NCBI GenBank assembly: GCA_026874595.1
Contig: CM049309.1
Span: 53,356,079 to 53,420,078, forward strand
DNA: 64,000 nt
Source: Sipunculus nudus
Lineage: Eukaryota; Annelida; Sipuncula; Golfingiida; Sipunculidae
Direction of reading: 5' to 3'
In this document: in pieces, positions 46 to 63,920 of the stretch
How positions within the stretch are numbered: position 1 is the first letter of the stretch
How the letters are laid out: every line of letters starts with the position of its first letter
Notes under the pieces: generated by a model
Seen by the model: only the letters and a program-made list of their open reading frames with translations
Told to the model about the DNA's origin: nothing
Databases searched by the model: none
Position numbers and translations under genes: made by a program

Positions 46-3000
46 CTGGAAAAATACTGATCTGTGAACCAGGTGCCTGAAGAAATACTGACAGGTGAGG
101 CAGATACAATGAGAAATACTGACAGGTGAGGCAGATACATGGAGAATTACTGACAGGTGAGGCAGATACCTGGAGAAATGCTGATGGGTGAGGCAGACAC
201 CTGGAGAAATACTGATTGGTGAGGTGAGGCAGACCTGGAGAAATACTGATGGGTGAGGCAGACACCTGGAGAAATCTTGAAATGTGAAATGGATATGGAG
301 AGAAATACAGACAGATGAGAGAGATACCTTGAGAAATACCGAGGGGTGAATTAGATACCTTGAGTATAACTGACAGGTGCTATAAATACATGGAGAAATA
401 CTGAGAGGTTAGTTGCTTACCTTTTGTAATACTGAGAGGTTAGAGACATATGTGGAGAAATACTATCATGAAAACTGTAAGAGTGAAAGGTAAGATATAT
501 ACTAGGTAATAAAAACTGGAGAATACTGACAGGTGATTCAAATACCTAGATAAGTACTGATGGGTGAAGCCGATGCTTTGAGATATAATGTAGGCATAGA
601 TATATTGAGATGTACACTCAGGTCATGCACAACTCAAGCAAACTGGTGACAAAAAGCAAGAGACACACTGATTCATAAACTGAAAAAAATTGTCAACCAC
701 TGCAAATTACTGGAGATATACCTGATATTACAGATAAGGCATCTTTGACATGGTCTAAATGATGCTAATATGAAAAATAAGAATAATCAATTAAGTAATG
801 AAAAAAAACACTAAAGTTCAATTCTTGCAAAAGCCCAAGGTTTCAACTGTCACTTTTCTTTCAAATTATATGAAAAAATGTATCTATGCATATAAAATTT
901 GCATTTGAAAAAAATTCAACAAATTCAAATTTATATTTATGTTAAATTATTGTAATACAATTTGTAAGGGCAAAAGTCTACCTGTATGGAATTTTTTTCT
1001 TCATGGCATCATTATATATACCAAGTATTGTGTCTTCATAGTTCATGTCTGGTTCTGTCTTGTGGTAATAATAAGCCCCTAAAATACAGAAACATTTTTG
1101 CAGATATTTATATCTACCCCGACAATATTCTGTACAAAAATAATTATCTGACATTATTCTGCACACAGTATATCACTGTCTCTGGTTCTGCAAGTACTCT
1201 ATACTCTGCATATTATCATCTCCAACTTGAAGAATATATTGCTTGTACATTACAGAAATGATTACAATGCAAGTGTAGATCATGAACTTATTTCATAACA
1301 CATTGCCATATGTGCTCAGGCCATGCAATGTCCTATAAAAAGTCAGGTTTAATATATTGGCAAGGATCATCAGTTTGCACACTAATTATAAAATGTCTTT
1401 ATTCATTTCATTGAAGGATTGATTAATACACCATGGCAGTTTGATAATTGATTCAATTACCCTCATTTGTGTAATTATGCAGGCAGAAATAACAAGTTGT
1501 AAACTTAATGATTGAAGACATGTAAATAAGTTTATATATGAGTGAAGACAGGATGGCTTACAGATTCTCCAATGGTTCGAATGTCTAATGGTGCCTCAAA
1601 CCATTGTTAGTGTAGAAACATATGTAGGCAATTGCCCTTTCTGTTGTCTGTGTAGTAACTTATAAAGGGTATTGTTCTTACCATTGTCTGTGTAGTAACC
1701 TATGTAAGCTATTGTCCTTACCATTGTCTGTGTAGTAACATATGTAGACTATTGTCCTTACCATTGTCTGTGTAGTCACCTATAAAGGCTATTGTCCTTA
1801 CCATTGTCTGTGTAGTCACCTATGTAGGCTACTGTTCTAACAATTCTCTGTGTAGTAACCTATGTAGGCTATTGCTCTTACCATTGTCTGTGTAGTAACC
1901 TATGTAGGGTATTGTTCTTACCATTGTCTGTGTAGTAACCTATGTAGGGTATTGTTCTTACCATTGTCTGTGTAGTAACCTATGTAGGGTATTGTTCTTA
2001 CCATTGTCTGTGTAGTAACCTATGTAGGCTATTGTTCTTACCATTGTCTGTGTAGTAACCTATGTAGGCTATTGTCCTTACCATTGTCTGTGTAGTAACC
2101 TATGTAGGCTATTGCTCTTACCATTGTCTGTGTAGTAACCTATGTAGGGTATTGTTCTTACCATTGTCTGTGTAGTAACCTATGTACGGTATTGTTCTTA
2201 CCATTGTCTGTGTAGTAACCTATGTAGGGTATTGTTCTTACCATTGTCTGTGTAGTAACCTATGTAGGCTATTGTCCTTACCATTGTCTGTGTAGTAACC
2301 TATGTAGGGTATTGTTCTTACCATTGTCTGTGTAGTAACCTATGTAGGCTATTGTCCTTACCATTGTCTGTGTAGTAACCTATGTAGGCTTTGTCCTTAC
2401 CATTGTCTGTGTAGTAACCTATGTAGGGTATTGTTCTTACCATTGTCTGTGTAGTCACCTATAAAGGCTATTGTCCTTCTGTGTAGTCACCTATGTAGGC
2501 TACTGTTCTAACAATTCTCTGTGTAGTAACCTATGTAGGCTATTGCTCTTACCATTGTCTGTGTAGTAACCTATGTAGGGTATTGTTCTTACCATTGTCT
2601 GTGTAGTAACCTATGTAGGGTATTGTTCTTACCATTGTCTGTGTAGTACCCTATGTAGGCTATTGTCCTTACCATTGTCTGTGTAGTAACCTATGTAGAC
2701 TATTGTCCTTACCATTGTCTGTGTAGTAACCTATAAAGGCTATTGTCCTTACCATTGTCTAACAATTCTCTGTGTAGTAACCTATGTAGGCTATTGTTCT
2801 TACCATTGTCTGTGTAGTAACCTATGTAGGGTATTGTTCTTACCATTGTCTGTGTAGTTACCTATATAGGGTATTGTTCTTACCATTGTCTGTGTAAGAA
2901 CCAATGTAGACTATTCTTCTTACCATTGTCTGTGTAGTAACCTATGTAAACAGTTGTCCTTACCATTGTCTGTGTTGTAACCTATAAAGGCTATTGTCCT

Positions 3001-6000
3001 TACCATTGTCTGTGTAGTAACCTATGTAGACTATTGTGCTTACCATTGTCTGTGTAGTAATCTATGTAAGCTATTGTTCTTACCATTGTCTGTGTAGTAA
3101 CCTATTTAGGGTATTGTTCTTACCATTGTCTGTGTAATATCCTATGTAGGCTATTGTCCTTACCATTGTCTGTGTAGTAACCTATATAGGGTATTGTTCT
3201 TACCATTGTCTGTGTAATAACCAATGTAGACTATTGTTCTTACCATTGTCTGTGTAGTAACCTATGTAAGCAGTTGTCCTTACCATTGTCTGTGTTGTAA
3301 CCTATAAAGGCTATTGTCCTTACCATTGTCTAACAATTCTCTGTGTAGTAACCTATGTAGGCTATTGCTCTTACCATTGTCTGTATAGTAACCTATGTAG
3401 GGTATTGTTCTTACCATTGTCTGTGCAATAACCAATGTAGACTATTGTTCTTACCATTGTCTGTGTAGAAACCTATGTAAGCAGTTGTCCTTACCATTGT
3501 CTGTGTAGTCACCTATGTAGGGTATTGTTCTTACCATTGTCTGTGTAGTAACCAATGTAGACTATTGTTCTTACCATTGTCTGTGTAATAACCAATGTAG
3601 ACTATTGTTCTTACCATTGTCTGTGTAGTAACCAATGTAGACTATTGTTCTTACCATTGTCTGTGTAGTAACCAATGTAGACTATTGTTCTTACCATTGT
3701 CTGTGTAATAACCAATGTAGACTATTGTTCTTACCATTGTCTGTGTAGTAACCTATGTAAGCAGTTGTCCTTACCATTGTCTGTGTAGTAACCCATGTAG
3801 GGTATTGTTCTTACCATTGTCTGTGAAGTAACCTATGTAGGGTATTGTTCTTACCATTGTCTGTGTAATAACCAATGTAGACTATTGTTCTTACCATTGT
3901 CTGTGTAGTAACCTATGTAAGCAGTTGTCCTTACCATTGTCTGTGTAGTAACCTATAAAGGCTATTGTCCTTACCATTGTCTAACAATTCTCTGTGTAGT
4001 AACCTATGTAGGCTATTGTTCTTACCATTGTCTGTGTAGTAACCTATGTAGGGTATTGTTCTTACCATTGTCTGTGTAGTAACCTATATAGGGTATTGTT
4101 CTTACCATTGTCTGTGTAATAACCAATGTAGACTATTCTTCTTACCATTGTCTGTGTAGTAACCTATGTTAGCAGTTGTCCTTACCATTGTCTGTGTAGT
4201 AACCTATAAAGGCTATTGTCCTTACCATTGTCTAACAATTCTCTGTGTAGTAACCTATGTAGGCTATTGTTCTTACCATTGTCTGTGTAGTAACCTATGT
4301 AGGGTATTGTTCTTACCATTGTCTGTGTAGTAACCTATATAGGGTATTGTTCTTACCATTGTCTGTGTAATAACCAATGTAGACTATTCTTCTTACCATT
4401 GTCTGTGTAGTAACCTATGTAAGCAGTTGTCCTTACCATTGTCTGTGTTGTAAACTATAAAGGCTATTGTCCTTACCATTGTCTGTGTAGTAACCTATGT
4501 AGACTATTGTGCTTACCATTGTCTGTGTAGTAACCTATGTAAGCTATTGTTCTTACCATTGTCTGTGTAGTAACCTATTTAGGGTATTGTTCTTACCATT
4601 GTCTGTGTAATAACCTATGTAAGCTATTGTCCTTGCCATTGTCTGTGTAGTAATCTATGTAGGCTTTGTCCTTACCATTGTCTGTGTATTGACCTATAGA
4701 GGCTATTGGTCTTACCATTGTCTGTGTAGTAACCTATATAGGGTATTGTTCTTACCATTGTCTGTGTAATAACCAATGTAGACTATTGTTCTTACCATTG
4801 TCTGTGTAGTAACCTATGTAAGCAGTTGTCCTTACCATTGTCTGTGTTGTAACCTATAAAGGCTATTGTCCTTACCATTGTCTAACAATTCTCTGTGTAG
4901 TAACCTATGTAGGCTATTGTTCTTACCATTGTCTGTGTAGTAACCTATGTATTTATTTATTATAATATTGTGAAGGGTGGCCTGTACCAGAATAAGAATT
5001 CTGTTATAAGCAGGGCCCTCTTCCAAGATATACAAGATATTATAAACAATGGAACATGATAATAAAAATACATTAAAGTACATGTACAATGCGAAATATA
5101 AAAGACATAATGAGACTGTAAACTCATTACAAAGGAATGATAATATCATAAAATTAATAAAAGGGACGGTACTAACAGCGGTAAGAGCAATGATTACATC
5201 TAAAACAATTTCGTGCTGTGATAAGATTATGACATCATTGTAAAATCGAGAAGTACAAACGTGATAATTTTTTAAAATGCTGCAAATTAGAAGCAAACTT
5301 AATGTGTCGAGGAAGGGAGTTCCATAGAGTACTGCCTGCATAAAAAGAGGTAGCCTTGAAGGCTTCAATACGCGGTTTCGGAAGGATACAGTTTTTGTTT
5401 TCGGTTAACCGCGTCGAATAATTATGAATGCCCTTCGCCATATGAAAATTCTTACATAAATATGAAGGGGCTAAATCATTAATGCATTTATAGGTTAAAA
5501 TAGATAGGAGGTACAAATATCGCTGATCAATTGTCATTAAGCCTATTTCTTTCACTAAATCTAAACTTCTTTGAGTTGGGTCGTAATTTTTTGTTATTAT
5601 CCTAGCTGCACGACACTGCATTCGTTGGATTGCGGCACGGAATGTGCTGGGACAGCTGCCCCATACTGTTAGGCTATAATCTATTGAGGGTTGAACAAAG
5701 GCGTGATATATAGTGACTAAAAACTTCTGTGGTAGAAATTTGCTGAGCCGATGTAAAAGTCCAATTTTGCAACATAGCTTTTTAAAAACGGTAGAAGTGT
5801 GAGATTTCCATGTGAGATGGGCGTCAATGATCAAGCCAAGGTGAGAAAATTCATCGACATTCGGGACAATATCTTTATCGATAATTATTTGTAATGAATT
5901 TGATTGTTTGCGTTGCTTGGAACTCACAAGCATAGTAGCTGATTTTGTGGCGTTTGCAATTAGTTTGTTTTTATTAAGCCATTTAGTAACTTGGTCTACA

Positions 6001-9000
6001 GCAGCCTGTAACTTATGTTGTGCTGATTCGCGATTGATGCCGTCTGCGTATAGCGTGATGTCGTCAGCATAAATCGAGCATTTTGCGTCTGTTACATTAT
6101 CGGGCAAGTCATTAAGATATAGTAAGAAAAGAATTGGTCCAAGTACAGTGCCTTGTGGTACACCTGTATCGATGGTTTTCACCTCAGAATTATAGTTATT
6201 GAAGCAGACAAACTGCTTTCGGTCGTATAAATAATTATAAAACCAGGTGTGCGAATTTCCATTTACGCCATACTGTTTTAATTTAGCCAATAATATATCG
6301 TGATTTAGGGAATCAAAACCTTTTTTAAGGTCGAGAAAGCATATGGAGTTTACATGTCCGCAGTTCATAACTGTCAGCCAATTATCAACTATTCTATGTA
6401 ATGCAGTTTGGGTAGAGTTGTTTGCAAGAAAGGCAGTTTGTTCAGGAGATATCAATCGTTTGTGGTTTAAGTAATTAAGGAGATGACGTTTAATGTGCTT
6501 CTCTAAGATTTTAATCCCATGGCTAGTGATCGAAATTGGCCGGTAATTGTTAGTATCAGAAAGTTTCCCTTTACCCTTATAAATGGGTACCACCCTTGCA
6601 CACTTCCAGTCAGGAGGAACTATTCCTGTACTGAGTGATAAGTTAAGAATATGTGTCAGCGATGGCGCTAAGATGACCGCGGCCTCTCCAAGTAAAACCC
6701 CGGCATATTGAGGACATCAATTCCATGTTTATTCTTAAATGCGACTAGAAGTTTCACGACATCCTGTTGGCTCATTTGAGGGATTGAAAACCGAGAATCA
6801 GTAAAATCAGGTTGGTCCTGCACAACATCTTTGGTAAATGCTTTAGTTAAAGTTTTTCCAACTGAGGCAAAGAAGTCATTCAGGTCATCCGCAGTTAGAT
6901 CTGGACTATCTTGACCCCGTCTAACTGGAATGATCACGTGTTTTAAAGACTGCCAAATCTCCTTGGGAGATTTTGATGACTGTGCCTTGTGTCTATAATA
7001 GGAACGTTTCAGTTGACGGATCATGCAAGTGACCCGATTACGTAACCGCCTGAACTGTGCCCACAGCTGCGGATCATTATTTGACACAGCAGATTTACGA
7101 ATGCGTTCTCGGTTTTATATTAGACGCTGGATATCAGGTGACATCCAGGGATTGTGTCTATTATTTCTAACTCTAAACTTTCTAAAAGGTGCGTGTTTAT
7201 TACATATGGTCAGAAATTCATCACGCCATAGATTCCAGGCCGAGATGACATCATTTACATCGGGAAGACAGTGAAATGTTAATGATGACTGAATGGACCG
7301 CTTGAAGGCAAGGGGATCAAATTTCTTAAAGGACCTAACTCTCACAAATTTGGTTCCTTTTTGGCAACTGCCTCCTGAGAGCCGGGTAAAAATAATATGA
7401 TGATCGCTAAGTGACCACGGAATAACGCCGGATGATGAGTGAATACCGGGTGTATTTGTAAAAATCAAATCTATCGTACTGGATGAGGTTGCGGTGACTC
7501 GAGTTGGGGAGGTTATAAGTTGATGAAGGTTGTATGATGTGGCCATATTCACCAACTCAACATTTATAGACGCTTTGGGGTTATTAAAATCAATATTAAA
7601 ATCGCCTATGATCACTGTATGAACATGTTTAGCCATAGCAAGGCTAATGTTATCGAAGAGAAGTTGTAAATAACTTTTGTCAGAGTGAGGCGGTCTATAT
7701 ATACACCCGATCAGAGAGTTACGTCTGTTCCATTGAATTTGGACCCAGATTACTTCTAGATGATCATTAGAAATAAAAGGACATACGGTAGATTGCAAGG
7801 AACATTGTACATAAATGGCAACACCTCCACCATGTCTATTTCGGTCTTTTCGGTAGAGAGTATACCCCGGGATTTCGATTTCATGGGTTGCGATACTATC
7901 GTCCAACCAAGTCTCAGTGAGACATATTACATGGACCGAACCAACCTTTAAGAGGAGCACTAATTCGTCGAACTTGGGAGGAAGACTTCTTACATTTAAG
8001 TGGATTATAGTTAGGCCATTCTTCTTTCGGATACACTGTAGGAGTGTTTCAATTGAGGTACCATCATCATGCGTGTTTGAGGGAGGCACGTTTTGATAAT
8101 CGGTAATGAACCCGTCATTGTTGTGACCAGGTAAGTAACTCTCGTTGTAAGGGGTACTGTTCATGTTAATTCTATTACTGCTTGCTTGTGAAAATTTTTA
8201 AGAGAGGTTGCGATTTTGATTACATCACATATATTCGAACGGAATGCCTTTGAGCCTTTCTTGTTTAGATGGAGGTTGTCAGATTTTAGTGTAAATGGAC
8301 CAAGGTTATCATTCATTACCAGAGTCCATCCGTTTTTTTCAGCGTAGATTTCTAGTGCGGCATTCAGAAGTCTTATTCTTTTAGAGTATATCTTAGAGGG
8401 TCTGCTAATCACTGTGCTAATTGTGACGTGCTTAATACTAGGATTCTGTTTTATAATTGGCACAATCTTACGGAACTTACGAATGCTAGTGTCTGCATTT
8501 TCTTTGCTTACATGATTTGTACCGATGTGTATGAGGAGATGGTCAGATTTGACTTGCTTGATCCTATCAATAGCATGATCAAAAGTAAACACACTTGAGT
8601 CCACATGCACATTGACTTTGGTTTCCTCGGAGAGGTCAGAAGAGTTCAAGTTCTTTGTCATTGAGTCCCCCAGGACAGTTACGTAAGAGGATTGGCAGGG
8701 CCTTGTTTTGTGTTGCTTGTGTTCGTGTGAAGGCTTGGGCGTAGAGTTCCCTGATTTCTTCTGAGCTCTGTTTACATGGCATGTTGCTGGGTTTACACTG
8801 GAGTCGTTGTGTACTTCTGTGGAAGCGTCTGTGCTAGGATACGCGTTTACGTCTCGGAAGCTGATAGTTGAGGCTGTTACAGACGAATCTTCACTCGTTG
8901 GATTTGATAGTGTGGAGTTTAGAAGAGTAATGGGTGTACTGGTATTCAGCGTAGTCTGTGTTGCAGTGGTCTTGATTTTTGGAGTTGAGGGTGGATCATT

Positions 9001-12000
9001 TACTGGTGATGACGAAAGGCAGTTTGTTGTTACGTTACATTTGCATTGACAGCATCGTGTTGAGTTCGATGGAGTGGTACGTTCCATTAAGGCATATTAT
9101 GGGTTTGAAGGGCTATGTTTATCTAAATTAGCGACTCAAGGCGGGTAGCAAGGAGGTTGATTTTGTGTGGATAGTTTCTGCACGTTATACACGTCCAGAT
9201 GCCAAGAGTTCCACTATCCTCTCCTACACATACTGGATGGAACCAGCTCATACAGATGCAGCATCGAACCATAGATTCATCAGCATACTTGCGATCATAT
9301 ACACAGTCCTTAGAGCAATATGATTCTTCTTGATCTTTGGTTTCAAGGTTGCGTTTTGATTGCTCTTTAAATGATGTTCTTTTTTTTGTATTACGTGTCT
9401 GACGTTCACATGTAGCTTTATCGGGTGTTAGTTTATCACAGTTTGATTTTGTGTTCACCTCATTGTATGAATTAGGAGAGCAATGGGTGTTATCATTCAG
9501 CTCAGCGTGTGAAATAGGGGAGCAATGGGTGTTATCATTCAGCTCAGCGTGTGACATTACACTAATATCCAGAGGTGATGGAGGCGACGTAGAGGCTGGC
9601 GATAATGGAGAGTCTTGAGGTATTGATGAGTTTATTTCAGGTAATGGACTCATTGAGTTGGAATTTTGAGGGGTCTTCTGGAAAAGATCCCCCAGGATGT
9701 TGTCTGTTGTTGTTGACCCTTTGTTCACAATTGAGGATGAAGCGATGACCGCAACACTGGTTTCACTCAATCTGGTTTGTACTCTGTTGTTTATACCATT
9801 AGATATGAATAACGCTTTGCATGAAAGTACAGGTTTTGGTATTGACGGGATTATATTGGCAAGTTCTGCCTGGATTGCTGACTTGCATTTTGTTTTCCTG
9901 AATTTGTTTAGGTCACACTTCTTCATATTATGAACAGTGGTATTCCAGTTATTTGTGACGTCACTGATGGCTTGCTCGAGTTTTTCTTTTGTCGGCACAG
10001 GCAAGCTATCGAGCAGCATGTTAGATTGTTGAATCAGTTTGTCAGACATGATTTCTTTTGCGTATACACTAATATGAGTTCGATAAAACGTCTTAGTGAC
10101 TGTTTATAGGAAGATGAGAGAACAGGACGCGGGGTTTGTTTACAGTTTCCAGGGGCGACGTCTTGAATGTTATGATAGATAAACTTACTTTTCCGTCGCT
10201 GAAATATCACTCAAACATCCCCACAACACAGTATAGGGGAATGCATGGAATATCACAGTTTGTCTTCTAAAACATGTGCTTGTAAAATCCGTTTAAGAGC
10301 GTAAAATCCATTAAAATCCAAGTAAAAATGTGAGCACTATAACTTCTCTGCTCGCTCCTTCACGCATGCGCATTTGTCATTGATTGTAGGGTATTGTTCT
10401 TACCATTGTCTGTGTAATAACCAATGTAGACTATTGTTCTTACCATTGTCTGTGTAGTAACCTATGTAAGCAGTTGTCCTTATCATTGTCTGTGTAGTAA
10501 CCTATAAAGGCTATTGTCCTTACCATTGTCTAACAATTCTCTGTGTAGTAACCTATGTAGGCTATTGTTCTTACCATTGTCTGTGAAGTAACCTATGTAG
10601 GGTATTGTTCTTACCATTGTCTGTGTAGTAACCTATATAGGGTATTCTTCTTACCATTGTCTGTATAATAACCAATGTAGACTATTGTTCTTACCATTGT
10701 CTGTGTAGTAACCTATGTAAGCAGTTGTCCTTACCATTGTCTGTGTAGTAACCTATAAAGGCTATTGTCCTTACCATTGTCTAACAATTCTCTGTGTAGT
10801 AACCTATGTAAGCTATTGTCCTTACCATTGTCTGTGCAGTAACCTATGTAGGGTATTGTTCTTACCATTGTCTGTGTAATAACCAATGTAGACTATTGTT
10901 CTTACCATTGTCTGTGTAGTAACCTATAAAGGCTATTGTCCTTACCATTGTCTAACAATTCTCTGTGTAGTAACCTATGTAGGCTATTGTCCTTACCAAT
11001 TTCTGGGTAGTCACCTATGTAGGCTACTGTTCTAACAATTCTCTGTGTAGTAACCTATGTATGCTATTGTTCTTACCATTGTCTGTGTAGTAACCTATGT
11101 AGGGTATTGTTCTTACCATTGTCTGTGTAGTTACCTATATAGGGTATTGTTCTTACCATTGTTTGTGTAATAACCAATGTAGACTATTCTTCTTACCATT
11201 GTCTGTGTAGTAACCTATGTAAGCAGTTGTCCTTACCATTGTCTGTGTTGTAACCTATAAAGGCTATTGTCCTTACCATTGTCTGTGTAGTAACCTATGT
11301 AGACTATTGTCATTACCATTGTCTATGTAGTAACCTATGTAAGCTATTGTTCTTACCATTGTCTGTGTAGTAACCTATTTAGGGTATTGTTCTTTCCATT
11401 GTCTGTGTAATAACCTATGTAAGCTATTGTCCTTACCATTGTCTGTGTAGTAACCTATGTAGGCTTTGTCCTTACCATTGTCTGTGTATTGACCTATAAA
11501 GGCTATTGTTCTTACCATTGTCTGTGTAGTAACCTATGTAGGGTATTGTTCTTACCATTGTCTGTGTAGTAACCTATATAGGGTATTGTTCTTACCATTG
11601 TCTGTGTAATAACCAATGTAGACTATTGTTCTTACCATTGTCTGTGTAGTAACCTATGTAAGCAGTTGTCCTTACCATTGTCTGTGTTGTAACCTATAAA
11701 GGCTATGGTCCTTACCATTGTCTGTGTATTGACCTATGTAGGCTATTGTTCTAACAATTCTCTGTGTAGTAACCTATGTAGGGTATTGTTCTTACCATTG
11801 TCTGTGTAGTACTCTATGTAAGCTATTGTCCTTACCATTGTCTGTGTAGTAACCTATGTAGGCTATTGTTCTTACCATTGTCTGTTTAGTAACCTATTTA
11901 GGGTATTGTTCTTACCACTGTCTGTGTAATAACCTATGAAAGCTATTGTCCTTACCATTGTCTGTGCAGTAACCTATGTAGGCTTTGTCCTTACCATTGT

Positions 12001-15000
12001 CTGTGTATTGACCTATAAAGGCTATTGTCCTTACCATTGTCTGTGTATTGACCTATGAAGGCTGTTGTCCTTACCATTGTCTGTATAGTAACCTATGTAA
12101 GCTATCATCTTTACCATTGTCTATGTAGTGACCTATGTAGGCTATTGTCCTTACTATTGTCTGTGTAATAACCTATGTAGGCTATTGTTCTTACCATTGT
12201 CTGTGTAGTAACCTATGTAGGCTATCGTTGGATCATGATCCTTCATGTGAGGATCCTTGTTGTACCAGAATCGCATCAGTTCTCCCCAGGCAGACATAGC
12301 CTACAATCACATGAATGTTGACATTCATACATGCAGGTCTGATACAAGACCCTCAACACTGGTCCAGGAATAGTTAAACTACAGTCTGTCCATCCAAGGG
12401 ATGCCCATTGGATTTTGGAAATATTTATGAAAACAAAACCTAGTATTTCTGTCCAGTATGTAACAAGAGCATTATGAGCACTTAAGCAAATAAGAATATG
12501 ACATTTGAATCAACCTGATTAAATGTATACTTTTTCTTCATAAATGACAGCACAGGATGGTCTCTTTTTAGCTGATTATGTACTGTATCAAATTTATGGT
12601 ACCAAGTACTACTATCAGCCAATCACTGTCTGCCAAATATGGCCTTGGCCATGTCCCTTCAATCAACATGTCATAATAAAAGCTATCTGTCTTCTCAGAT
12701 GACAGCCAGAGGAAAGGTAATTTTAATACTTGTATTATATATATAATTTTGTTTATTTTATTATGAATAATATACTCACTTGATTCAGCCCTCTGTCTCC
12801 ATAGAATACAATGGTTTCATACAAGAACCCTTTTGGAAGTGCGTTGACATTACCCATGATGCCCCAGTTGACAGTGTTCATCTTCTGGTCATGTGACATG
12901 GAGGCAGCCATGAATTGGTTGAATGGTGAGATGATGATCACATGACCAAGCTTGTCAAACAGAACCACAGGCCCACCCTCTAAACCATCAGTAAACTTCA
13001 AATCTGGCTTCCATCTGTGTAAATAATTCACATACTGTTCACCATTTTATTGATAGCCTTGTTCAATGTGTTTTTGTTATTTAGATGGTCCCCCAACATG
13101 TTATAAACACATGGATATAAACAAAAAGAAAAGGACAGGACAGGATATGGTGACCTCTGATCCTTAACTGTGAGATTTATTTTAGATTTTAGATAAATTC
13201 CTAAACTTTTTATATGCACATTACAGGTAGTATCTCTCTTTGCTTTTATTGTATAGTTATCAATTTTGTAAACAGTTACTATAGAGAGGGTTTGCTAAAT
13301 TTAATGGAAATTGTTATTACTTAATCATTTGTAACCATGTTAAAAATCTGACCAAATGAGGGGGCATTAATCTGATTAATCCTCTGAGCAGTAAAGGGCT
13401 GAAACATTCTGATAAATCTATTAAACTTAAGGATTGGTTGCAGGGGATCAATATGGGGGGGGGGGGTATATATCCCCCCCACTTTTTGGCAAGGGGGGAT
13501 GGTCAATGTAATCCCCCCCCCCCAATATTCAGTGAATAATATTTATATATTTCAAATTAAATATATAAATAAATAGAATTATAGACTTTGGTTCCATTTA
13601 TGAGTTTACCAAGAAATATTTATATCTAAATGGTTTAGAATAAACATATCCCTTTTTTTAAACCTTATGATATATATATTTGATATGTGTCACACAGACA
13701 ATAACAGGTATATATAAATATATATATATATAATACATATATTATATATATATATATGTATTAACATGTCTGTTTTATTCAAATTTTGACTACCATCCAT
13801 GCTTGTCACCCCCCCCCCCCCCGACCCATGCCTGTCAACCCCCCCCCCCTTGCGACCCCCCCCTTTCAATATTTAAAATCCCTGCCCCCCATAATTTTAT
13901 TACCCTTACTTCTCAGTTTAAAATAAAACCAATTTGTCAGGGGAATGATTATGACTAAGATTTCTATCAGATATTTAATTATAAAGTTATAAAAAAAACA
14001 GTCAAAATTCCTGGCAACATTTTTTTATAGCATCTGTATGACAGGAGGAAACACAATGGGACCACAACATGACTTTAAGCATATAAAATGAATAGTTGCT
14101 AATTTTCAGGAGTATTACATGAAAACAAAACACTGGAAAAATACTATTGTAAAAATGGAATATAAAAGATACTCACTGACCAATCACCTTGGAATAATCA
14201 CCAATGAAATTCCCCCCTAAAGCCAGGTAGCCAATAGCATTGTGAGAATCTTCAACATGGAATGATGGGAAGGCTGACACCACTTTGTTTGGATCACCAA
14301 CAGCTGTGTTCCTGGCATCTGCACCTTCAATCATCTGCAAAGGGGTGCACAATGTTTGTTTTACTTATATTTTGTTTATAATAATTTAATTACATTTTTC
14401 CATACTTTTAGAAAACAAGGTCTACAGGCCTAATGCAAACCTGTGCACAGTTTGGGAGTGTGAATGGAGTATTTCTGTTTAAATTAAATATTGATCCTCT
14501 TATGTCCTGCATATCTACCTTAGTCATTATGATTTCAGCAAAATGGACATTTCGGACCTGCAAGGTTCGGACTAGGACATTTTTAAACTAAACTAGGATG
14601 TATCAGTCAGGATTTTTTGGATATGTTCTTCTTTGCCAGGGTAGATTATTTGGACAGATGAACGGACAATTTGGTAGCATGGTTTCTGAGAAGAACATTT
14701 TTTAATGTGTTTTGGCTTCTTCCCTATAAAATTTTAGAAAATGCAGTTAGCCAAGAAATAAGCAAAATCCAATAGAATTTTTAGATGACAAATTTTTTGC
14801 AAAAAATTTGGTGATGCTAGCTCCTGAGAAAGCTATGATGCACGACGGACGATGGAAGACTGACGACACCACACCATTGCAAAAAATCTCAGAGATTCAC
14901 TATAAATGCAATCCCAGGTTTTTTCAAACAGTTGAAAGATATAGTTCCAATAGTTCTAATCTGGGCACTCTGTGTCTAGACCATGTGTCTAGATGTCTAG

Positions 15001-18000
15001 ACACTGTGTCTAGACGTCTAGACATTGTGTCTAGACAAGGCAGAGCCAGGTCAGTTGCCATGGTGATGTCTGGACCCCACCTGGTTGTACTGAGTGACCT
15101 CTTGATTTGGCTGCTGAAACGCGGCATGTTGTCAAATCTGTTTTCAAACACAGAAAGCCTTTTTTTCAATTGGCTACACTTCTTTTTTAAAGCTGCATTT
15201 ACCCAATCTATTCTTATAAAACTAACAGAACCCTACCATAGAATAATTCTTGTAAAGTTTAAACCAATGAGCTTAACAGTTTTATCAAAAAACAATGTAT
15301 AAGCTAGAAAAGTCTAAATTACATTTTCACTTGTGAAAAACAGATCAATGTGGGTGGCGCCACCAATACCTCAATTTCAGATATGACTTATATGACAAAC
15401 ATTGACATAAAATTTGGTGATGATAGCTCCAGCTGTTTCTAAGATTTTAATTTTAGTGTCCTTTTTTTGACAGATGACTAAATTCAACCTCCTGTAACTC
15501 AGCCACAAATCAACAAACTGGAACCATTGAACAAACTGGAGAGAGATTGTTCCAGGGAACATTTCTGTGAAATATTGGACAATTTGGCTGGACAGTTTCG
15601 GAGAAGAAGATTTTTAAAGGGTTTTAAGCTTTTTCTCTATAAAATCTAAAGTAATGCAGATACCCAAATATAAGCTCTAGGGCACCAAGTTTCACATGTG
15701 ACTAACTCTTACATGTAATTTGGAGCTGCTAGCTCTGAAGGTTTCTGACTTACAGCCCTGGACGGCAGACAGCCAGCCCTGGACGGCAGACGGACGATGC
15801 CACGCCATTGCATAAGCTTACAGGTTCACTAAAAAGACTGTCTGGATTAGTAATTTTTATCAAGGGGCAACATATCACTAACATGCAAACAATTTTTAAC
15901 ATACAATAAGATTGTAATGTATATATAACAGTTAGTAAATATAAGCTGAAGAAAGATGTAGGCTGTTTGGCCTACATTTATTTATATATTCTATTTATAA
16001 ACAAATACATAATATTCTACTGCAGGAAATGGACACTTTTAAACTGGTTGTATTACTTTTTATTTGACACAATTCTTTAATCTGTCATATGATTAAAACT
16101 GGTTGGTACTTTAATCTGTTCACCTGTTCTTTGTGCTACTTCCTTAAAATCAATTAAGCTTACAAGTAATATTGGCAAAGGGGAAAAAAACATGTTTTAT
16201 ACATTAGCAACTTGAAATGCACAAAATATTTAATTTATGACCTATTAACATGTGCTAACGGTGTAGAGATTGCATATTGACCTTTTAGACTGCAGGCCTT
16301 AACACCTACAAAATATGGAATGACATGTATGTTACATGAGGGAGGTCATGTGGATCATTTAAAAGTGATTCAACTTTAATTGGTAGACATGGCAGATCAA
16401 TAAAATATTGATTTGGAGTTTTCCTGCTCATTTAGATAAGACTGGAGTGCAGGTGTTATTTTGTGAGGCTGTTTGTGAATTGAACACTGCAACATATCAT
16501 GACTTCATCTTCCGTTAAATTAAATACCCCTCCTCAGAGCAGCAGACTCTCCCATTCTTATTCGCTGCTTGAGTCATGTATGTTTACAGCTTGAGATATG
16601 TTTTCATTTTTTTTTACAAACTTGATACATGAACTAATTTTACTTTCACTAACTTAATGCTGCCTTTTATTCTTATTTTGCTTTCAACAAAAATTTAATC
16701 TTTATAAAAAAAATAAAAAATGTATGGACTGATGGTCACTATACTAGTAAGTGGTGAACTGCAGAACTTATTTGTCTGGGTATTTACCTGTGAAAACACA
16801 GCAACTGACTGGAGTTTATAACGACGTATGGAGCAGCCAGCTGTTGCCTGATGTAGCGAGTACCCGTATGTGACCTTATTCCAGTCTCCCAGCTTATCTG
16901 CTCCCTCAGAGCGCTCTGGTGGTCCCTGCAGCTTCAGGGAGCCATCAGCAGTTGTCTGTAACTTACCATCATTCTGAAAGAAGGTGGCAGCACTGTTTAG
17001 CCAAACCTGACCATCAACAGTGATTTTGTAGCTCCCATCTGGATTTGTAACAACATCAAATCCTGGCTGTGTACTGAGCACAGCAGTACAGACTCCCGCC
17101 ACTGAAAGAAAGAGATAAAAAGGTCAGAAATAATCATAATAATTTAAACTTGCATAGTTATGGATTATCTAATTACTTATACATGTATGTATTATATAAA
17201 AGAGGAGTACACATTTTATAATGCACTGGAACTTATCCTTTCTTGTATGTTTTTTCTCTGCTTGCTCTAACACTCTACATATAGTCAGAAGGGCAGGGAA
17301 AAAACTTAATTCTCTGTGTGATAACATCCATAAACACTGCAGCCCTGTTTCTCCTTCAGGTATATTACCTGGGAATATTTTTACCACAATAAAGATACAC
17401 TGCTAAACTCTGAGTATCTATAAACCAACATGGTTATAATCACTCTATGGCAGTGGTAATTATAATGCCTTTCCAGCCATCTCAGACAGGCAAAATTTCA
17501 TTTTGTACCAATCTGCTGGAAAGGTGAACACCTAATTGTTTTCTTCATTAATAGATGATAAGAAGTAACATTACAACACTAAAAAAAAAGCTTTTAGAGG
17601 TGGTATTCAACCGACGCCCTATATTTCCATATAAAACTGGTCCATAATTTCTTATAAAAGAAATATATAATTTCTTCATAAAATGAGTCTGTGTTCCCAA
17701 ATAACTTCGGTATGTAACTGAGTATGACACGGTAGATGCGAGAACGGAGGACTTATTAAACTTATTATCTATGAACTTGCAGGGAGCTGCAGAATTAGCG
17801 GAGAGTTTTCCAATGAAATGTACATTGCAAAATATGGGCAGGAAGGTGTTAAAATACTCCATAAATTCTCCAGGTCTATGCCAATTTTGCGAGATTCTCT
17901 TAACCGATTCTATTCAACCGATGCCAGGTGCTGCTGTTTAGGCCGTCCTTAAAAAATTCTTCGTTGGGGTTAACCCGGCTAGTCGAGTATTTGGATCTCA

Positions 18001-36444: not shown

Positions 36445-36657
36445 ACTGTTTGGAGGCTATATATGATCTTGTGTGAAAGAGGTAGATAAAAGTACATCCG
36501 GCAATATGTCAACAAGGGAAGCCGGCTGGCATCAGGGGTTTGGGAAATCAATTTGTGTCAGGGAAAAAGTACAGTAGATGATCACATGTCATGCTTATTT
36601 AAGAAACCCACATTGTTTTCATGTCTACTTCTGAAGGCTGCATTAATCAGATCGTCA

Positions 36658-37042
36658 ATGGCTGCGTCGTTCTATCAGCTGACCCCGCTCAAGCTTGGAG
36701 CCGAGGTTCGCGGGGTGAAACTTTCTGAGGACGTACCCGCGGACGTTATTGAACAGATCCGACGTGACGTCACTAAACATCGAATCCTAGTGTTCCGTGA
36801 CCAGGGAGACATCAGTGGTGACCGGCAGGTGGAGATAGGTCGCTGGTTTGGGGAGCCTGAGTCCACTTTCTACAAGCATCACCGCTCCCCACATCCTGAC
36901 GTGTTCCGGGTGTCTAATGATGAGGAGGAGGGGTGTACCGGGGTCGGGAGGACCGGCTGGCACATTGATGGGTCCTTCCAACCCGCACCATTCAGTTATG
37001 CTCTCTATCATATAGTCCATGTACCAAAAAAAGGAGATACAG
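36658..37042 (+). CDS. Dioxygenase exon 1 (HxD iron ligands)
   Basis: The exon is 385 nt and ends at ACAG|GTAATT in phase 1. It encodes the first 128 residues, including RILVFRDQG, FGEPESTFYKHH and the WHID iron motif. It is clearly more GC-rich than its surroundings. Confidence 0.93.
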
Positions 37043-40000
37043 GTAATTGTAATCAGATCAGGTAATTAGTCTAAAGTTCCACGAATAATTGATGACTCAT
37101 AATTCATTATGAATATGTGTCAATGAATGAAATAAAATCAAAATAGCACATTCAGCATTTAATATAAGATTTTAACAGTCAAGTAAGATAAGACCTATTT
37201 AATAAAAGACTGAATTAGTAGAATAAAATAAACTTGGTAGGTCTACATATTTCTAATGAACATACACAGATGGTTATCCTGTATCTTTGATGACCATGGG
37301 TATAAATCAAACTTAAATGACCAAATAATACAAAGTAATTCATTTTAGTATGGTAAAAATAAATAAATAAAAAACTGCTGTACATAATAAATTCAAAGAC
37401 CCAGCTGCTGGGTATAATAAACATATTAAAATGTGCTTTAATATGTTGATTTGTGACAAAGACTGTAAATCATGACAGTCAGTATTCCTTGCATGGTAGT
37501 CATATAAACTAACAATTCCAATTAACAAAAATCAGTTTTTTTTCTTTCTTTACAATAATCTACATAAACTTTCTCCAGAACTTGATTACTGTTTTATAAA
37601 TATTTGAGGAGGAGAGGTTCCCTGTCTTAGTACAAGATGGGAAATATTTCTTTCTTTAAATACAGTGAAACCTGTGTTATGCGACCACCCATAGGACTGG
37701 TCAAAAGAGGTTTTAATTTACAGGTGGTCTTATTAGAAAGGTCAGTTATAACCAATGTGAATGCTTTCAGTACACCCAAGGAGGGTCTTAATAGACAGAT
37801 GGTCTTACAAGATAGGTGGTTTTTCAGACAGGTTCTACTGTAATATATAATTGCAGAAGCCCTATACAACCACGGTACCTGTATTAGTAAATTATATCAA
37901 TGTATTTAGTATCTCACCATCACCATTGATAATCATATGTAACTGTACTTGTGACCCCTGTACATCATGTATATGTCTGATTCAAGGGAAACATCCATAG
38001 TTTCAGCTACACGAAGTACAATGTTGTATACCAGTATATAACACAGAACTTTAAAATTTTATTGTTATGCCACCTTTTAGGTTTATATAACTAATCAAAT
38101 ATACTAATTATAATATTGCTTTTCCCCTATTTTTTATCAGTGATATAGAACTTGAGTTCAGACTTGGACTCAAATCAGTACATTCACTTTTTTCAGGGAC
38201 TTAGACCTGATGGTCCTGGACTCGGACTTCAACACTAAGTGACTTGTACTCAGACTGCCAGGTCAAGATTTAAAAAATTAGGCCCAGTCAATCTTGACTC
38301 CAGCAGGAAAAACATTGTCACCTTAGTTCTGATGATAAGATTGGAAAACACACCTTAAATGTTTACAAACTATTGACAGAACCTTAAACACAATAAGATT
38401 GGCCAATATTGAATTCCCTCCTGAATATCCAAATTGGATAGATCTCAAGCTAAACACTTGTGAAAAAAAGAAAGCATTGACTATACAAAAATGAACTTTT
38501 ATCTCAGATTTACATTTTGTTAATACATGTTCATATATGTAATATATTTGTTGTTGGGCTCAGATCCAGGCTTGTACTCAGTTTCAAAGAGACACAAACT
38601 TGAAGAACACAATGAGCTGTACTAGGACTCAGACCTAAAGTACTCAGACTTAGACTTGACCAGCCTGAATCTGGACTTGCACTCTTTTTCAGATAATGTG
38701 GACTTGACTACAACTTGCTTCAGATGTTAAGGCTCATTGAGTCCTCTAGTTGACATTGTTTTGTACATCTGATCTGACATTATCTCATATTACAGCCACA
38801 CATAAACTGACCTAGAGAGATCTTTCAGCTCTAACTGTATTAGACCGTAAGCCCTTAATACAATACTTGTTTGAATTACCTGATAGTCACTTGCGTATAT
38901 GGGTATCCTTGTAACTATTCAGCCCTGTCAGTCATGTTTCAATCATGTTTCTTCATATATCAGTGTGTATCACTAGAAAAATTAGACACATTTACCATGG
39001 TTTACAGCATTGTTTGTCTGATGGATGAATGTACACTTACTTTGAAAACAGAAATAATTAACATTTATATGACTACCTTGTTGATTTTTGCTCTGTTTTT
39101 GCTTTGCAGTGTTTGCCCCTTTGACAGAACTTATCGAAGGTCTGGATGAGCAAAAACGGGATCGCTGGGAAAGGTTATGGATGGTCAGTGATGCCCGAGC
39201 TGATCGTGTTCATCCTCTAATTTACCCACATCCCCTGACAGGACACCAGGTCAGTATACCTAACTAGAAAGTAGTCAGAGACATCATGTGCACCTCCACC
39301 TGGATCTTATTCAAACTTTACTGGTTTGGTGCATGCTACACAGAAAATCTGTCACCTGTGAACTCTGCACACTTAAACAAAGGCAGCCCTCAATAACAGT
39401 GAATCAAAAGACCTAGATTATCAAATTGCCCGATGGTAAAAATCTAAAAAAAAATTACATTTCATAATGACCTGGATTACCTCCAGACTGTAATGGATGC
39501 TCCAAGAGGTTTACCCAAACTTCCAATAAATTTCATCATAATCCATTCGTAACTTTTTGAGTAAAATAAATTGCTGTCAGACAAACCAATTAAGTAATAA
39601 CCAACAGTGATAAAAACATTTACAGTGGAACCTGTCTGAAAGACCACCTTATTAATAAGACCACATGTCTATAATGACCACCCTTGAGTGAACTGAAAGC
39701 TTTCGCATAAGGTAGGGTTCTCAGGCACTTTTTTTCTCAGAAATCAGTGTTTTTTACCTTTTTTTGTGTGTTTCAATAAAAATGTCATATGATCAGGGAA
39801 AAGCATGATAATTACAGATTTTTTTTGCTAAACAGGTAAAAGCACTACATAACAAAGGAAATCTAATCAAAATTATATTATTTTATCATCTTGAAAGAAA
39901 TGTCTGTGGGGCTTGATCTTAAAATTGGTAAGTTTCTATTGAAAATCAAAAGGAAAATTTTTGATGTGGGGGTGGGGGGGGGGGGGGGGTTAAATTGACA

Positions 40001-50900: not shown

Positions 50901-53900
50901 CAATCATATTTTTTAACATATATAACAGCTGAGCGCCGTGACCCATGGGTCCCTTGTTAAAAAATTGCATTATATTTGGGCCCATAACTTCATAATAATA
51001 CCCAATACTGACCTAATTTTAGGTATGTGCACAGAAAATGTATGGAAAAATATGAATACTAAATATGATCAAAAACAGTTCAGTGGTTTTGATATTAGGC
51101 AGCCTTGAAGTGTAACAATGGCTTTTTTATGGAAAACGGAGGTTTTTCCTTAATATCTTGAAGGAACAAAGTCCTAATGACCCAATTTTCGGTATGGTAG
51201 GAGATTTTGGGGACATCTAATGGTATGCAGAATTTTGGATTCGTAGGTCCAAGGGTTTTAAAACGTGCCCTGATAATGGACAGACGGACGGACGGACGGA
51301 CAAAGGACCACGACTATAGCTCAGATGACTTATAGTCAGCTGAGCTAAAAATCATACAAAGAGCTGTCACATAGCATGGTGTGCTGATATTGTGGCTGTT
51401 TAAACATCATCAAAAACAATTACAAAAAGCTGTCGCAGAGCATGGTGTGCTGATATTATGGCTGTTTATTCATCACTCTCAAAAATCATACAAAGGGTTG
51501 TCACATAGCATGGTGTGTTGATATTGTGGCTGTTTATTCCTCACTCTCAAAGATCATACACAGAGCTGTCATATAGCATGGTGTGCTGATATTGGGGCTG
51601 TTTATTCCTAACTCTCAAAAATCATACAAAGAGCTGTCACATAGCATGGTGTGCTGATATTGTGGCTGTTAATCATCATCAAAAACCATACAAAAAGCTG
51701 TCACAGAGCATGGTGTGCTGATATTGTGGCTGTTTATTCCTCACTCTCAAAAATCATACAAAGAGCTGTCATTTGGCATGGTGTGCTGATATTGTGGCTG
51801 TTTATTCCTCACTCTCAAAAATCATACAAAGAGCTGTCACAAAGTATGATGTGCTGATATTGTGGATGTTTAATCAATATAAAAAATCATCACCTTAAAA
51901 ACATCATACAAAGGGCTGTCACATAGCATGGTGTGCTGATCTTGTGGCTGTTTAATCATCACCCTAAAAACATCATACAAAGAGCTGTCACAGAGCATGG
52001 TTTGCTGATATTGTGGCTGTTTAATCATCACCCTAAAAACATCATACAAAGGGCTGTCACATAGCATGGTGTGCTGATATTGTGGCTGTTTATTCCTCAC
52101 TCTCAAAAATCATACAATGAGCTGTAAAATAGCATGGTGTGCTGATATTGGGGCTGTTTAATCATCATCCTCAAAAGCCATACAAAGAACTGTCACAGAG
52201 CATGGTGTGCTGATATTGTGGCTGTTCAATCATCACCCTAAAAACATCATACAAAGGGCTGTCACATGGCATGGTGTGCTGATATTGTGGCTGTTTAATC
52301 ATCATCCACTAAAACCTTACAAAGAACTGTCACAGAGCATGGTTTGCTGATATTGTGGCTGTTTAATCATCACCCGTAAACATCATACAAAGGGCTGTCA
52401 CATGGCATGGTGTGCTAATATTGTGGCTTTTTAATCATCATCCACTAAAACCATACAAAGAACTGTCACATAGCATGGTGCGCTGATCTTGTGGATGTTT
52501 AATCATCACCCTAAAAACATCATACAAAGAGCTGTCACAGAGCATGGTTTGCTGATATTGTGGCTGTTTAATCATCACCCTAAAAACATCATACAAAGGG
52601 CTGTCACCAGCCATGTGTAAAAATATATATAGTGATCTGTGTAACCCCCCCTCCCCCCCCCCCCCCTGATTAAAAGTAGCCATCTCCTCATGAACCCGAT
52701 ATGTTTCTCATGAAGTTTCAAATATTTAATTCATTTAGTTAATTCATTACATTTCCCATGAAAGATAAATAGAAACATTATAAGTCACAAATCTTTGACT
52801 TATGCTCAGAAATTCAGTGCCTTAAATATCCTTATTCAGAGAAGAGAATGCAGAACACCAGTTTTGAGACACCAGCCAGAAGACATTTTATGGGATCTGC
52901 CATCGTGTTGATTAAAACTATGTCAAACGGAAATAGCATTAAGCTGATTCTTTTTTTGTTAACCTCTAGCAGGAAAGCCTTGATGAAGACCAACTGCTCT
53001 GCTTTTTCAATGGGTGGAAATAACAGGACTGCCTTATGCTTAAGGTTGTTTGTCAGAGTTAATCCAATTACATGCTAATACTGGGGTAGGTTCTCCAGCA
53101 TTACATACTGACAGCTAGGTCATAAAAAGTCAATTAATGAAATAGGGTTTTGTGTATTTAAGGTGCTGTGTGTCAGATTAAGCGCAGTCTTTGACAGAGC
53201 TCATTAGGGAGCAAGCTCTGGTTTTCAGCATGACAATTTTTTAATATTTGATTTTTGCTCATTTCCGGACTAGGCAGTTTTATTTGAATTGGAGCCTTTT
53301 TCACAGTTTGTATAAAAGATTTCATCAACATGTAATTGACTTTTTCACAGTCCAGCCATAGATATTAATTTTTATGTTCCTGGTAACTGGAAATAATTAA
53401 TAAACCATTGCTGGCAGTGGTGTGTGGAGTAGGGGGTTGAGGGGGGAGGGGAGGGGGGGGGGGGTGGGGGGGAGATGGTTGGAGTGTGAGTGTAATAGCC
53501 CATAAATGCCAATAAACAAAAAATTCCGTTTAGGGGGGCATTGTGTTGACATTGAAGAACCTGGTGCATTTTGGCACACTTTTACATGGTTGTATTGTTA
53601 AATGTGTCTTAGGAGTTGTAAATATTCATAAAAAAAAAATTAGCTAATATTGGAATAAAAGGTAGAACAATCATTTTAGGCAAAAGGAGAACAATGGAGA
53701 AAATATTCTCACAAACACATCTGAAAATATCTTTTGGTCAAAATGTAAAAATTATCATATAATAGAAGAGACACAGCATGGAAGTAATTAAGGATTAAGT
53801 TCATTCATGTTCTCTCTTCCCTACTTTTTTTTCTTTGCAACAGAGGGGGGGGGGGGGGCTGTATGGTCGTGCAGTCTTTCCACCCCTGACAAGTGTAGAC

Positions 53901-62777: not shown

Positions 62778-63920
62778 CTAGATGTGTCGGAACGACACGA
62801 ATGCCCCCGCCTGGGGCAACTTAGAAACATTTGTTAAATTTTGAAAAATTGTTAAGTTCAGGAGGTGTCATATGGTCAAAAGTAGGTCAACAAGGGCAAA
62901 ATGCAAACTCGATCTGTAACGGGTCATTATCAAGCAACACACCAAAAATCAGGCCAGTATCTGCAGGCATTGTGAAAAAAAGTCCATACATGTGCATTTT
63001 CCATAAAAAATTCTGTCTTTCATTAAATTTGTTATGTTTAGGAGCCGTAAAACAATCAAAAGTAGGTCAACCGGGACAAAACGCGAACTCGATCTGTAAC
63101 TGTCATTATCTGCCAACATATAAAAAATCAGGTTGGTATCTGCAGGCACTGAGGAAAAAAAGTCTGTACATATGCATTTGTTATGAAAATTTCTATTTTT
63201 CATGAAATTTTCTATGTTCAGGAGCAGTCAAATGGTCAAAAGTAGGTCAACTGGGACAAAACGTGAACTCGATCTGTAACTGATCATTATCTGCCCACAC
63301 ACCAAAAATCAGGCCCATATCTGCAGGCACTGTGAAAAAAGTCCATACATGTGCACTTTTTTATGAAATTTCTATGTTAGAGCACCGTCAAATGGTCAAA
63401 AGTAGGTCAACTGGGACAAAACGTGAACTCGATCTGTAACTGGTCATTATCTGCCCACACATCACAAATCAGGCCAATATCTGCAGGTATTGCGAAAAAA
63501 AGTCTGTACATATGTATTTGTCATGAAAAGTTATATTTTTCATGAAATTTTCTATGTTCAGGAGCTTCAAAAGTAGGTCAACTGGGATGAAACGCGAACT
63601 CGATCTGTAACTGGTCAATATCTGCCCACACACCAAAAATCAGGCCAATATCTGCAGGCATTGCAAAAAAGTCCGTACATGTGTATTTGTCATGAAAATT
63701 TCTATTTTTCATGAAATTTTCTAAGGAGCCTTTAAACGGTCAAAAAGTAGGTCAACCGGGACGAAACGTGAACTCGTTCTGTAACTGGTCATTATCTGCC
63801 CACACACCAAAAATCAGGCCAATATCTCCAAGCATTGCGAAAAAAGTCCGTACAACTGTTTGATTTCGGAATGACGGACATGGGTTAAACTATATGCCCT
63901 TTGTGGCGGGGGCATAAAAA
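62778..63920. mobile_element. Non-autonomous element with six tandem core repeats of about 175 bp
   Basis: It starts near CTAGATGTGTCGGAACGACA and ATGCCCCCGCC (62,801-62,811); the exact inverse GGCGGGGGCAT is at 63,905-63,915. In between, AAAAGTAGGTCAAC recurs near 62,879, 63,059, 63,239, 63,399, 63,570 and 63,744 (periods 180, 180, 160, 171, 174), each unit with ACTCGATCTGTAACTG, ACACACCAAAAATCAGGCC and ATATCTGCAGGCA. This layout of a tandem core between conserved ends recalls the bivalve pearl/Helentron-like elements; the class is inference. Confidence 0.75.

Follow-up and report, generated by a model that had tools for sequence, protein, structure and literature searches.

Minisatellites spanning exon/intron boundaries were first described in 2002 in the amphioxus gene Adh3, under the name of mirages (PMC3087553). 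The excerpts of PMC3087553 and PMC3902484 used for the present comparison describe clusters that affect either the 5' or the 3' boundary, are unstable in length and were proposed as a source of new introns (PMC3087553). Mirages were also reported in the amphioxus globins BflGb6 and BflGb9, and similar duplications in PGBD5 and troponin C, the latter two cases being added by PMC3902484. Units of 10-72 bp were given for Adh3, and repeats of 150-160 bp for BflGb6, where the two haplotypes carried six and three of them (PMC3087553). Data on the Adh3 and globin mirages suggest that regular splicing was undisturbed (PMC3087553, PMC3902484). The array considered here, which is probably of this type, consists of ~130 units of 40 bp and lies in a stretch of 64,000 nucleotides (the window) from contig C4 of a 1.43-Gb, intron-bearing genome. 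It occupies about half of an 11-kb intron, directly after exon D of a gene encoded on the minus strand.

The human ABCA7 gene offers a second comparison, as far as it is documented in the consulted portions of PMC5954066. The first two bases of a variable number tandem repeat (VNTR) in its intron 18 are those of the exon 18 donor. This VNTR is polymorphic, ranging from ~12 to 427 units, and its influence on splicing, expression and disease risk has been measured. Splicing also takes place at the donor of the second unit, which adds 25 nt, shifts the frame and yields transcripts sensitive to nonsense-mediated decay. Use of this donor was unchanged by array length; its share, 2 +/- 1 %, is a value read from the word order of a sentence that was only partly visible. 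Longer arrays were associated with lower expression and more skipping of exon 19, and alternative transcripts together exceeded the canonical one in 90 % of samples from one brain region. In potato RdRp, according to the excerpt of PMC4974935, a new intron arose from a single duplication across a boundary. Papers on abalone and earthworm report intronic minisatellites, their accessible text making no statement that these span boundaries. A literature search of incomplete coverage, based mostly on titles and abstracts, returned no boundary-spanning arrays beyond the mirage, ABCA7 and potato cases.

The 40-bp array at the exon D donor

Exon D (exon 5 of the initial annotation) is located at 12300-12195 on the minus strand and is 106 nt long. 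It is preceded by the acceptor gattgtag/GCTATG (splice boundaries are indicated by slashes) and ends with TACACAGACAATG/gtaagaac, in phase 1. The array unit of ~40 bp reads ATAGCCTACATAGGTTACTACACAGACAATG/GTAAGAACA on the minus strand and is composed of the last ~31 nt of exon D followed by ~9 nt of intron. The last 31 nt of the exon itself (12195-12225) form the terminal unit with no boundary in between, as had been noted initially.

Tandem Repeats Finder (TRF) reported the 40-bp array in two halves, at 1600-4951 (82.7 copies) and 10385-12229 (45.3 copies). Parsing by wrap-around alignment gave 130 units, of which 126 were complete and four partial. The exon-proximal part (10381-12225, minus strand) held 46 of them, 44 complete, and the distal part (1601-4951, minus strand) the other 84, 82 complete. 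The initial annotation had placed ~130 units at 1610..12300; the number was confirmed, but the array is not continuous over this span, as a long interspersed nuclear element (LINE) at ~4952-10380 leaves 5.2 kb of array DNA in 10.7 kb. It had also stated that every unit equals the exon end plus GTAAG. Derivation from the junction held for the array, whereas "every" did not: GTAAG was intact in 115 of the 126 complete units, or in 114 of 125 once the authentic donor is set aside, GT was kept in 121, and only seven of the 126 were exactly identical to the exon-derived 40-mer. Complete units comprised 67 distinct sequences, an 11-bp insert being found in eight units and a deletion in six. GTAAG occurred 22.45 times per kb of array and 0.75 times per kb elsewhere on the same strand of the window, a 30-fold difference.

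For the first 12 units, the distance to the nearest other unit averaged 1.83; it fell to 0.41 in the middle and rose to 2.67 over the last six. The interior of the array is thus homogenised and its ends are decayed, as unequal exchange predicts. A 29-base core of the unit had 23 exact matches in the genome, all at the window locus. Allowing up to three mismatches raised the number to 115, and the 100 among the matches listed were again all local. The unit was ruled out as a dispersed element on these grounds, in contrast to introner-like elements, which are dispersed among genes.

Five further copies of the gene were detected by tblastn, two on contig C10 (C10a and C10b), one on C5 and two on C9 (C9a and C9b). 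Read by eye, the end of exon D and its donor were at the same position in all six copies, with the sequences AATG/GTCAGT, AACG/GTCAGT, AACG/GTAAGA, GGAG/GTATTT, GGAG/GTAACT and AATG/GTAAGA. TRF reported no junction array at the exon D donor of the other five copies; in C10b, an AAT microsatellite was found a few bases past this donor. Because five paralogs free of the array keep the same donor position, exon D is ancestral and the array derived. The opposite direction, an exon derived from the array, was ruled out, since paralogs lacking a junction array at this position conserve the exon end. Origin of the array from the exon D/5' splice-site junction, which was already claimed in the initial annotation, is established.

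Several properties are shared with mirages. The unit spans an exon/intron boundary, the authentic boundary of exon D is the terminal unit of an intron whose position is ancestral, and many units keep the splice dinucleotides (AG/GT in mirages; GT and GTAAG at the frequencies given above). Interior units are homogenised with the edges excluded, and both boundary types are affected in the gene family. Unlike mirages, the array brings together ~130 40-bp units at a single junction, is split by a LINE, belongs to a family in which several junctions are affected, and is known from DNA alone. It resembles the ABCA7 VNTR in starting at the authentic donor, in repeating it and in having a unit length that is not a multiple of three; the ABCA7 unit differs in being 25 bp long, and no exon sequence is described in it in the consulted text (PMC5954066). 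Like the potato RdRp case, it is a local tandem duplication across an exon/intron boundary. Unlike that case and intron gain by AGGT duplication, an existing intron was lengthened, its position being common to the six copies.

The LINE inserted on the minus strand displayed an endonuclease (PF03372), a reverse transcriptase (PF00078) and a GDSL-like frame that scored below the Pfam cut-off. It is flanked by TACA on both sides, beyond which the array resumes, and its reading frame is interrupted. When 40 of 270 candidate places, including its own, were scored, a 941-bp piece matched 39 other places in the genome at 98-99 % identity, and the LINE is therefore young. Its location between the two halves means that the array predates the insertion.

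Probable tolerance of the donor ladder

Well over a hundred candidate donors had been announced for this intron, and their strength was in agreement with this. The authentic donor pairs with U1 at -8.0 kcal/mol, and 115 of the 126 scored donors, itself included, were as strong or stronger; donor sequence alone therefore cannot mark the true one. The prediction that later donors shift the frame and lead to an early stop was also borne out. When nine later GTAAG donors were tried one by one, the first stop always fell at codon 49 (numbered from the beginning of exon D), 13 codons beyond the exon.

The array is quite probably a mirage-type minisatellite that is tolerated because the exon-proximal donor stayed intact. 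A short tandem duplication would have spanned the exon D end together with the beginning of the intron, would have grown by slippage or unequal exchange to ~130 copies, and would later have been split by the young LINE. Tolerance is expected because it is the intron that receives the copies, the exon-proximal donor being left unharmed. Most transcripts presumably use that donor, since only it and the next few would delimit an exon of normal length, and since acceptor-like sites are lacking in the array (see below). With an exon of 106 nt growing by 40 nt per unit, position could mark the true donor. Slips to a later donor would add at least 40 nt and run into the stop 13 codons past exon D; because of this early stop, the products would probably be removed by nonsense-mediated decay. 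Among the three fates initially proposed for the ladder (ignored, tolerated or used for regulation), tolerance appears best supported from the DNA, and regulation found no support.

Three points weigh against this reading. The first is a weakness of the evidence on acceptors: a simple pyrimidine criterion gave no acceptor-like site in the 5,166 bp of array, compared with 15 in the 3,607 bp of other introns, which favours tolerance in that array units would not easily be exons themselves, but this criterion was ad hoc and, by a hand count, the acceptor of exon D would itself fail it. The second is the analogy with ABCA7, where array length lowers expression and raises skipping, so that a tolerated array need not be free of effect. 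The third is the recurrence of junction arrays in the gene family, which is described below.

The array constitutes a natural test of how the spliceosome settles on one donor in a series of over a hundred that are nearly identical, and the six paralogous copies provide versions of the same junctions with and without arrays. Together with the size of the array and its recurrence across paralogs and boundaries, this makes the interest of the case. If the host is not a cephalochordate, mirages are extended to another group; if it is one, the array shows a described phenomenon in a large and well-populated form.

Junction arrays elsewhere and competing explanations

Two other junction arrays were found in the window gene. 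The second one (46-464, minus strand; TRF 11.8-12.5 copies) has a 31-bp unit, CAGTATTTCTCCAG/GTATCTGCC..., which corresponds to the 3' splice site of exon F together with roughly the first eight bases of that exon, and it is located in the next intron. The third lies in the preceding 10-kb stretch of the contig (C4:53346080-53356079, positions 6583-6999, reverse strand) and is composed of 10 copies of a ~39-bp unit in which the 3' splice site of exon L, a later exon, is repeated (TATTACAG/GACTGGTTGGATTTTG). Among the paralogs, C9b displayed 39.8 copies of a 64-bp unit with GTCACTCAG/GTATGA at the exon L donor (14778-17326 of the joined C9 stretch, coding strand). Shorter arrays of 64 or 70 bp units were located at the same donor in C9a, C10a and C10b, and C10b carried 3.8 copies at its exon F acceptor as well. 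In total, four of the five paralogs harboured five junction arrays and the window gene three, at both boundary types. They would amount to five or six independent origins, as the arrays at the exon L donor perhaps share ancestry. Boundary-spanning arrays being already known as mirages, what is new here are the acceptor arrays at exons F and L, the arrays of the paralogs and the ladder at locus L064 (see below).

Arrays were counted over the six gene copies with a unit of 20-120 bp and at least 2.5 copies, overlapping TRF rows being merged. Eight of 13 straddled a splice junction (C10a one, C10b two, C9a one, C9b one, C4 three), or seven of 13 in a strict count, as the qualifying row of C10a lies just inside the intron and C10a is counted only via merged rows; the proportion is biased, the gene family having been entered through one such array. 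The five non-junction arrays were at 1574-2044 and 6413-6584 in C9b, 1630-1983 in C9a, and 3466-3528 and 8942-9047 in C4. Arrays outside the limits were excluded before counting, among them four copies of 329 bp in C5, 4-4.7 copies of 278-280 bp in C9b and 11.6 copies of 19 bp in C4, and by their coordinates none of these straddled a junction. Chance expectation was ~5 % per array, a rough value from ~144 junctions in ~104 kb estimated by hand. Recurrence on this scale exceeds random placement and suggests either a mutational preference for junctions or a selected role.

Under a mutational preference, the splice junctions of this genome would be hot spots at which minisatellites are founded repeatedly, in many genes and at donors as well as acceptors. 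This explanation deserves tentative consideration only, at somewhat less than even chances, and is supported by the eight arrays of the family and by the ladder at locus L064 (see below). Outside it, a ladder pattern of three AGGTRAGT sites at steps of 23-53 bp matched 1,733 times in the genome (847+886), against 1,048 (414+634) for the reversed motif used as a crude control. Enrichment of donor ladders was not accepted from these totals, because the reversed control showed more loci where both were listed: over the initial 7.6 Mb of C1, the matches listed represented four control loci and one donor locus. The genome may thus simply be rich in minisatellites.

The donor matches listed represented 19 distinct loci (C1 and the first 70 Mb of C2). 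Three of these were inspected, namely the first in the list and two chosen for coding-looking units. One was clear, one ambiguous and one had no edge in view. At the clear one (C1:6783427-6783840, L064), which is unrelated to the gene family, an acceptor was followed by the open frame MSEKAEIQNGPKENGDKKGLLDQQNHNEYPPEPVLPNKNKNYSEKG, the donor AAAG/GTAAGC and then ~41-bp copies of that junction. At L062, an exon-like frame adjoined 42-bp units that stay open and may be a coding repeat, and the stretch inspected at L063 was wholly inside the array. A baseline from 30 kinase loci (111 kb) contained four arrays (unit of 20-200 bp, at least 2.5 copies), none of which touched a visible exon by eye; this baseline is weak, as the best matches were mostly long open frames and two of the four arrays run off the locus.

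A related conclusion, on which we are similarly reserved, would be that junctions seed minisatellites recurrently and that introns lengthen by amplifying their own boundary signals, independently in paralogs and possibly outside cephalochordates. If so, selection of the exon-adjacent copy by the spliceosome would make the process tolerable, and junction-seeded arrays, were they common, would be a route for intron growth and for heritable splicing variation as in human ABCA7.

A somewhat less likely explanation, and on balance a doubtful one, is that the array acts as a length-dependent modifier of splicing. The ladder and the 11-kb intron would then cut splicing or expression according to copy number, generating heritable variation in dose without being a selected regulator. 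ABCA7 is the precedent, its array sitting at an exon donor with use of the second-unit donor, and its longer alleles showing less expression and more skipping (PMC5954066), and the U1 values, by which 115 of the 126 scored donors equal or exceed the true one, are consistent with it. Conversely, the use of the second donor in ABCA7 did not rise with array length in the consulted portions of the same paper, and the amphioxus mirages are reported, in the excerpts cited, not to disturb splicing (PMC3087553, PMC3902484).

That the ladder is a selected regulator, with donors serving as U1-binding decoys that retain the intron or guard against premature polyadenylation, is very improbable. The 30-fold density of GTAAG would fit such a role, and the donor with its exon flank was the least variable part of the unit. 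Non-consensus bases amounted to 2.1 % in GTAAG, 2.2 % in the adjacent ACACAGACAATG and 10.1 % at unit positions 9-27. The test proposed with the initial annotation, whether GTAAG is kept above neutral positions, gave no sign of selection: GTAAG was better kept than positions 9-27 but not than the adjacent ACACAGACAATG. Private (singleton) variants were not depleted either, their number per position being 1.4 in GTAAG and 0.65 in the exon-derived part; of the 40 circular windows of five positions, 39 had as few or fewer of them than GTAAG. Purifying selection on the donors of the ladder was rejected on this basis. The pattern of common variants was taken to reflect subfamilies of units, with no apparent sign in these sequences that donors are being kept. 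Moreover, five paralogs do without an array at the exon D junction. Any selected function of the ladder is probably slight, if there is one at all, in accordance with its reading as a tolerated mirage-type array.

An assembly artefact inflating the array, or an exon D that ends elsewhere, is scarcely credible, for although long tandem arrays are hard to assemble, the former is opposed by 67 distinct units, a clean LINE insertion and decayed edges, and the latter by a donor position common to six of six copies and by protein continuity into exon E.

The window gene and other observations

Exons of the window gene were all placed on the minus strand, exon A being located at 17101-16788 (any earlier exons were not placed), exon B, from the same gene as exon D, at 14334-14177, and exon C at 13014-12780, where the printed end of 12781 was shifted by one base to give CAA/GTGAGT. 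Exon E (GAYYYHKTEPDMNYEDTILGIYNDAMKKKIPYR), the exon following D, is located at 1078-982, with the acceptor tgtattttag/GGGCTT and the donor CATACAG/gtagac. Only the start of exon F lies in the window (45-1), as tttttccag/GTATTTACAGTATGATGACTGGTGG, encoding YLQYDDWWYP. The spliced product of exons D, E and F accordingly reads ...DPTIAYIGYYTDN/GAYYYHKTEPDMNYEDTILGIYNDAMKKKIPYR/YLQYDDWWYP. No Pfam match was obtained with 317 aa from the window gene (E up to 0.01) or with a 478-aa paralog composite (E up to 5), nor did a PDB sequence search with the same 317 aa return one (E up to 1).

The GC content of the window was 35.6 %. Two more minisatellites were present in it, at 51347-52607 (68 bp) and 62876-63854 (160-180 bp), and beside the first of them no exon was recognised by eye. 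A plus-strand open frame at 36490-37065 may correspond to an exon of a TauD-type dioxygenase, which it resembles. At the scale of the assembly, contigs C1-C17 carried 131 of the 138 kinase matches and all 88 esterase matches. Pfam searches for the GFP and mollusc-haemocyanin families returned no match, a result that is no proof of their absence. Nearly full-length intronless open frames of aldehyde dehydrogenase were found on C72, C85-C88, C93, C109, C111 and C128, which suggests that these contigs represent bacterial cobionts in the assembly.

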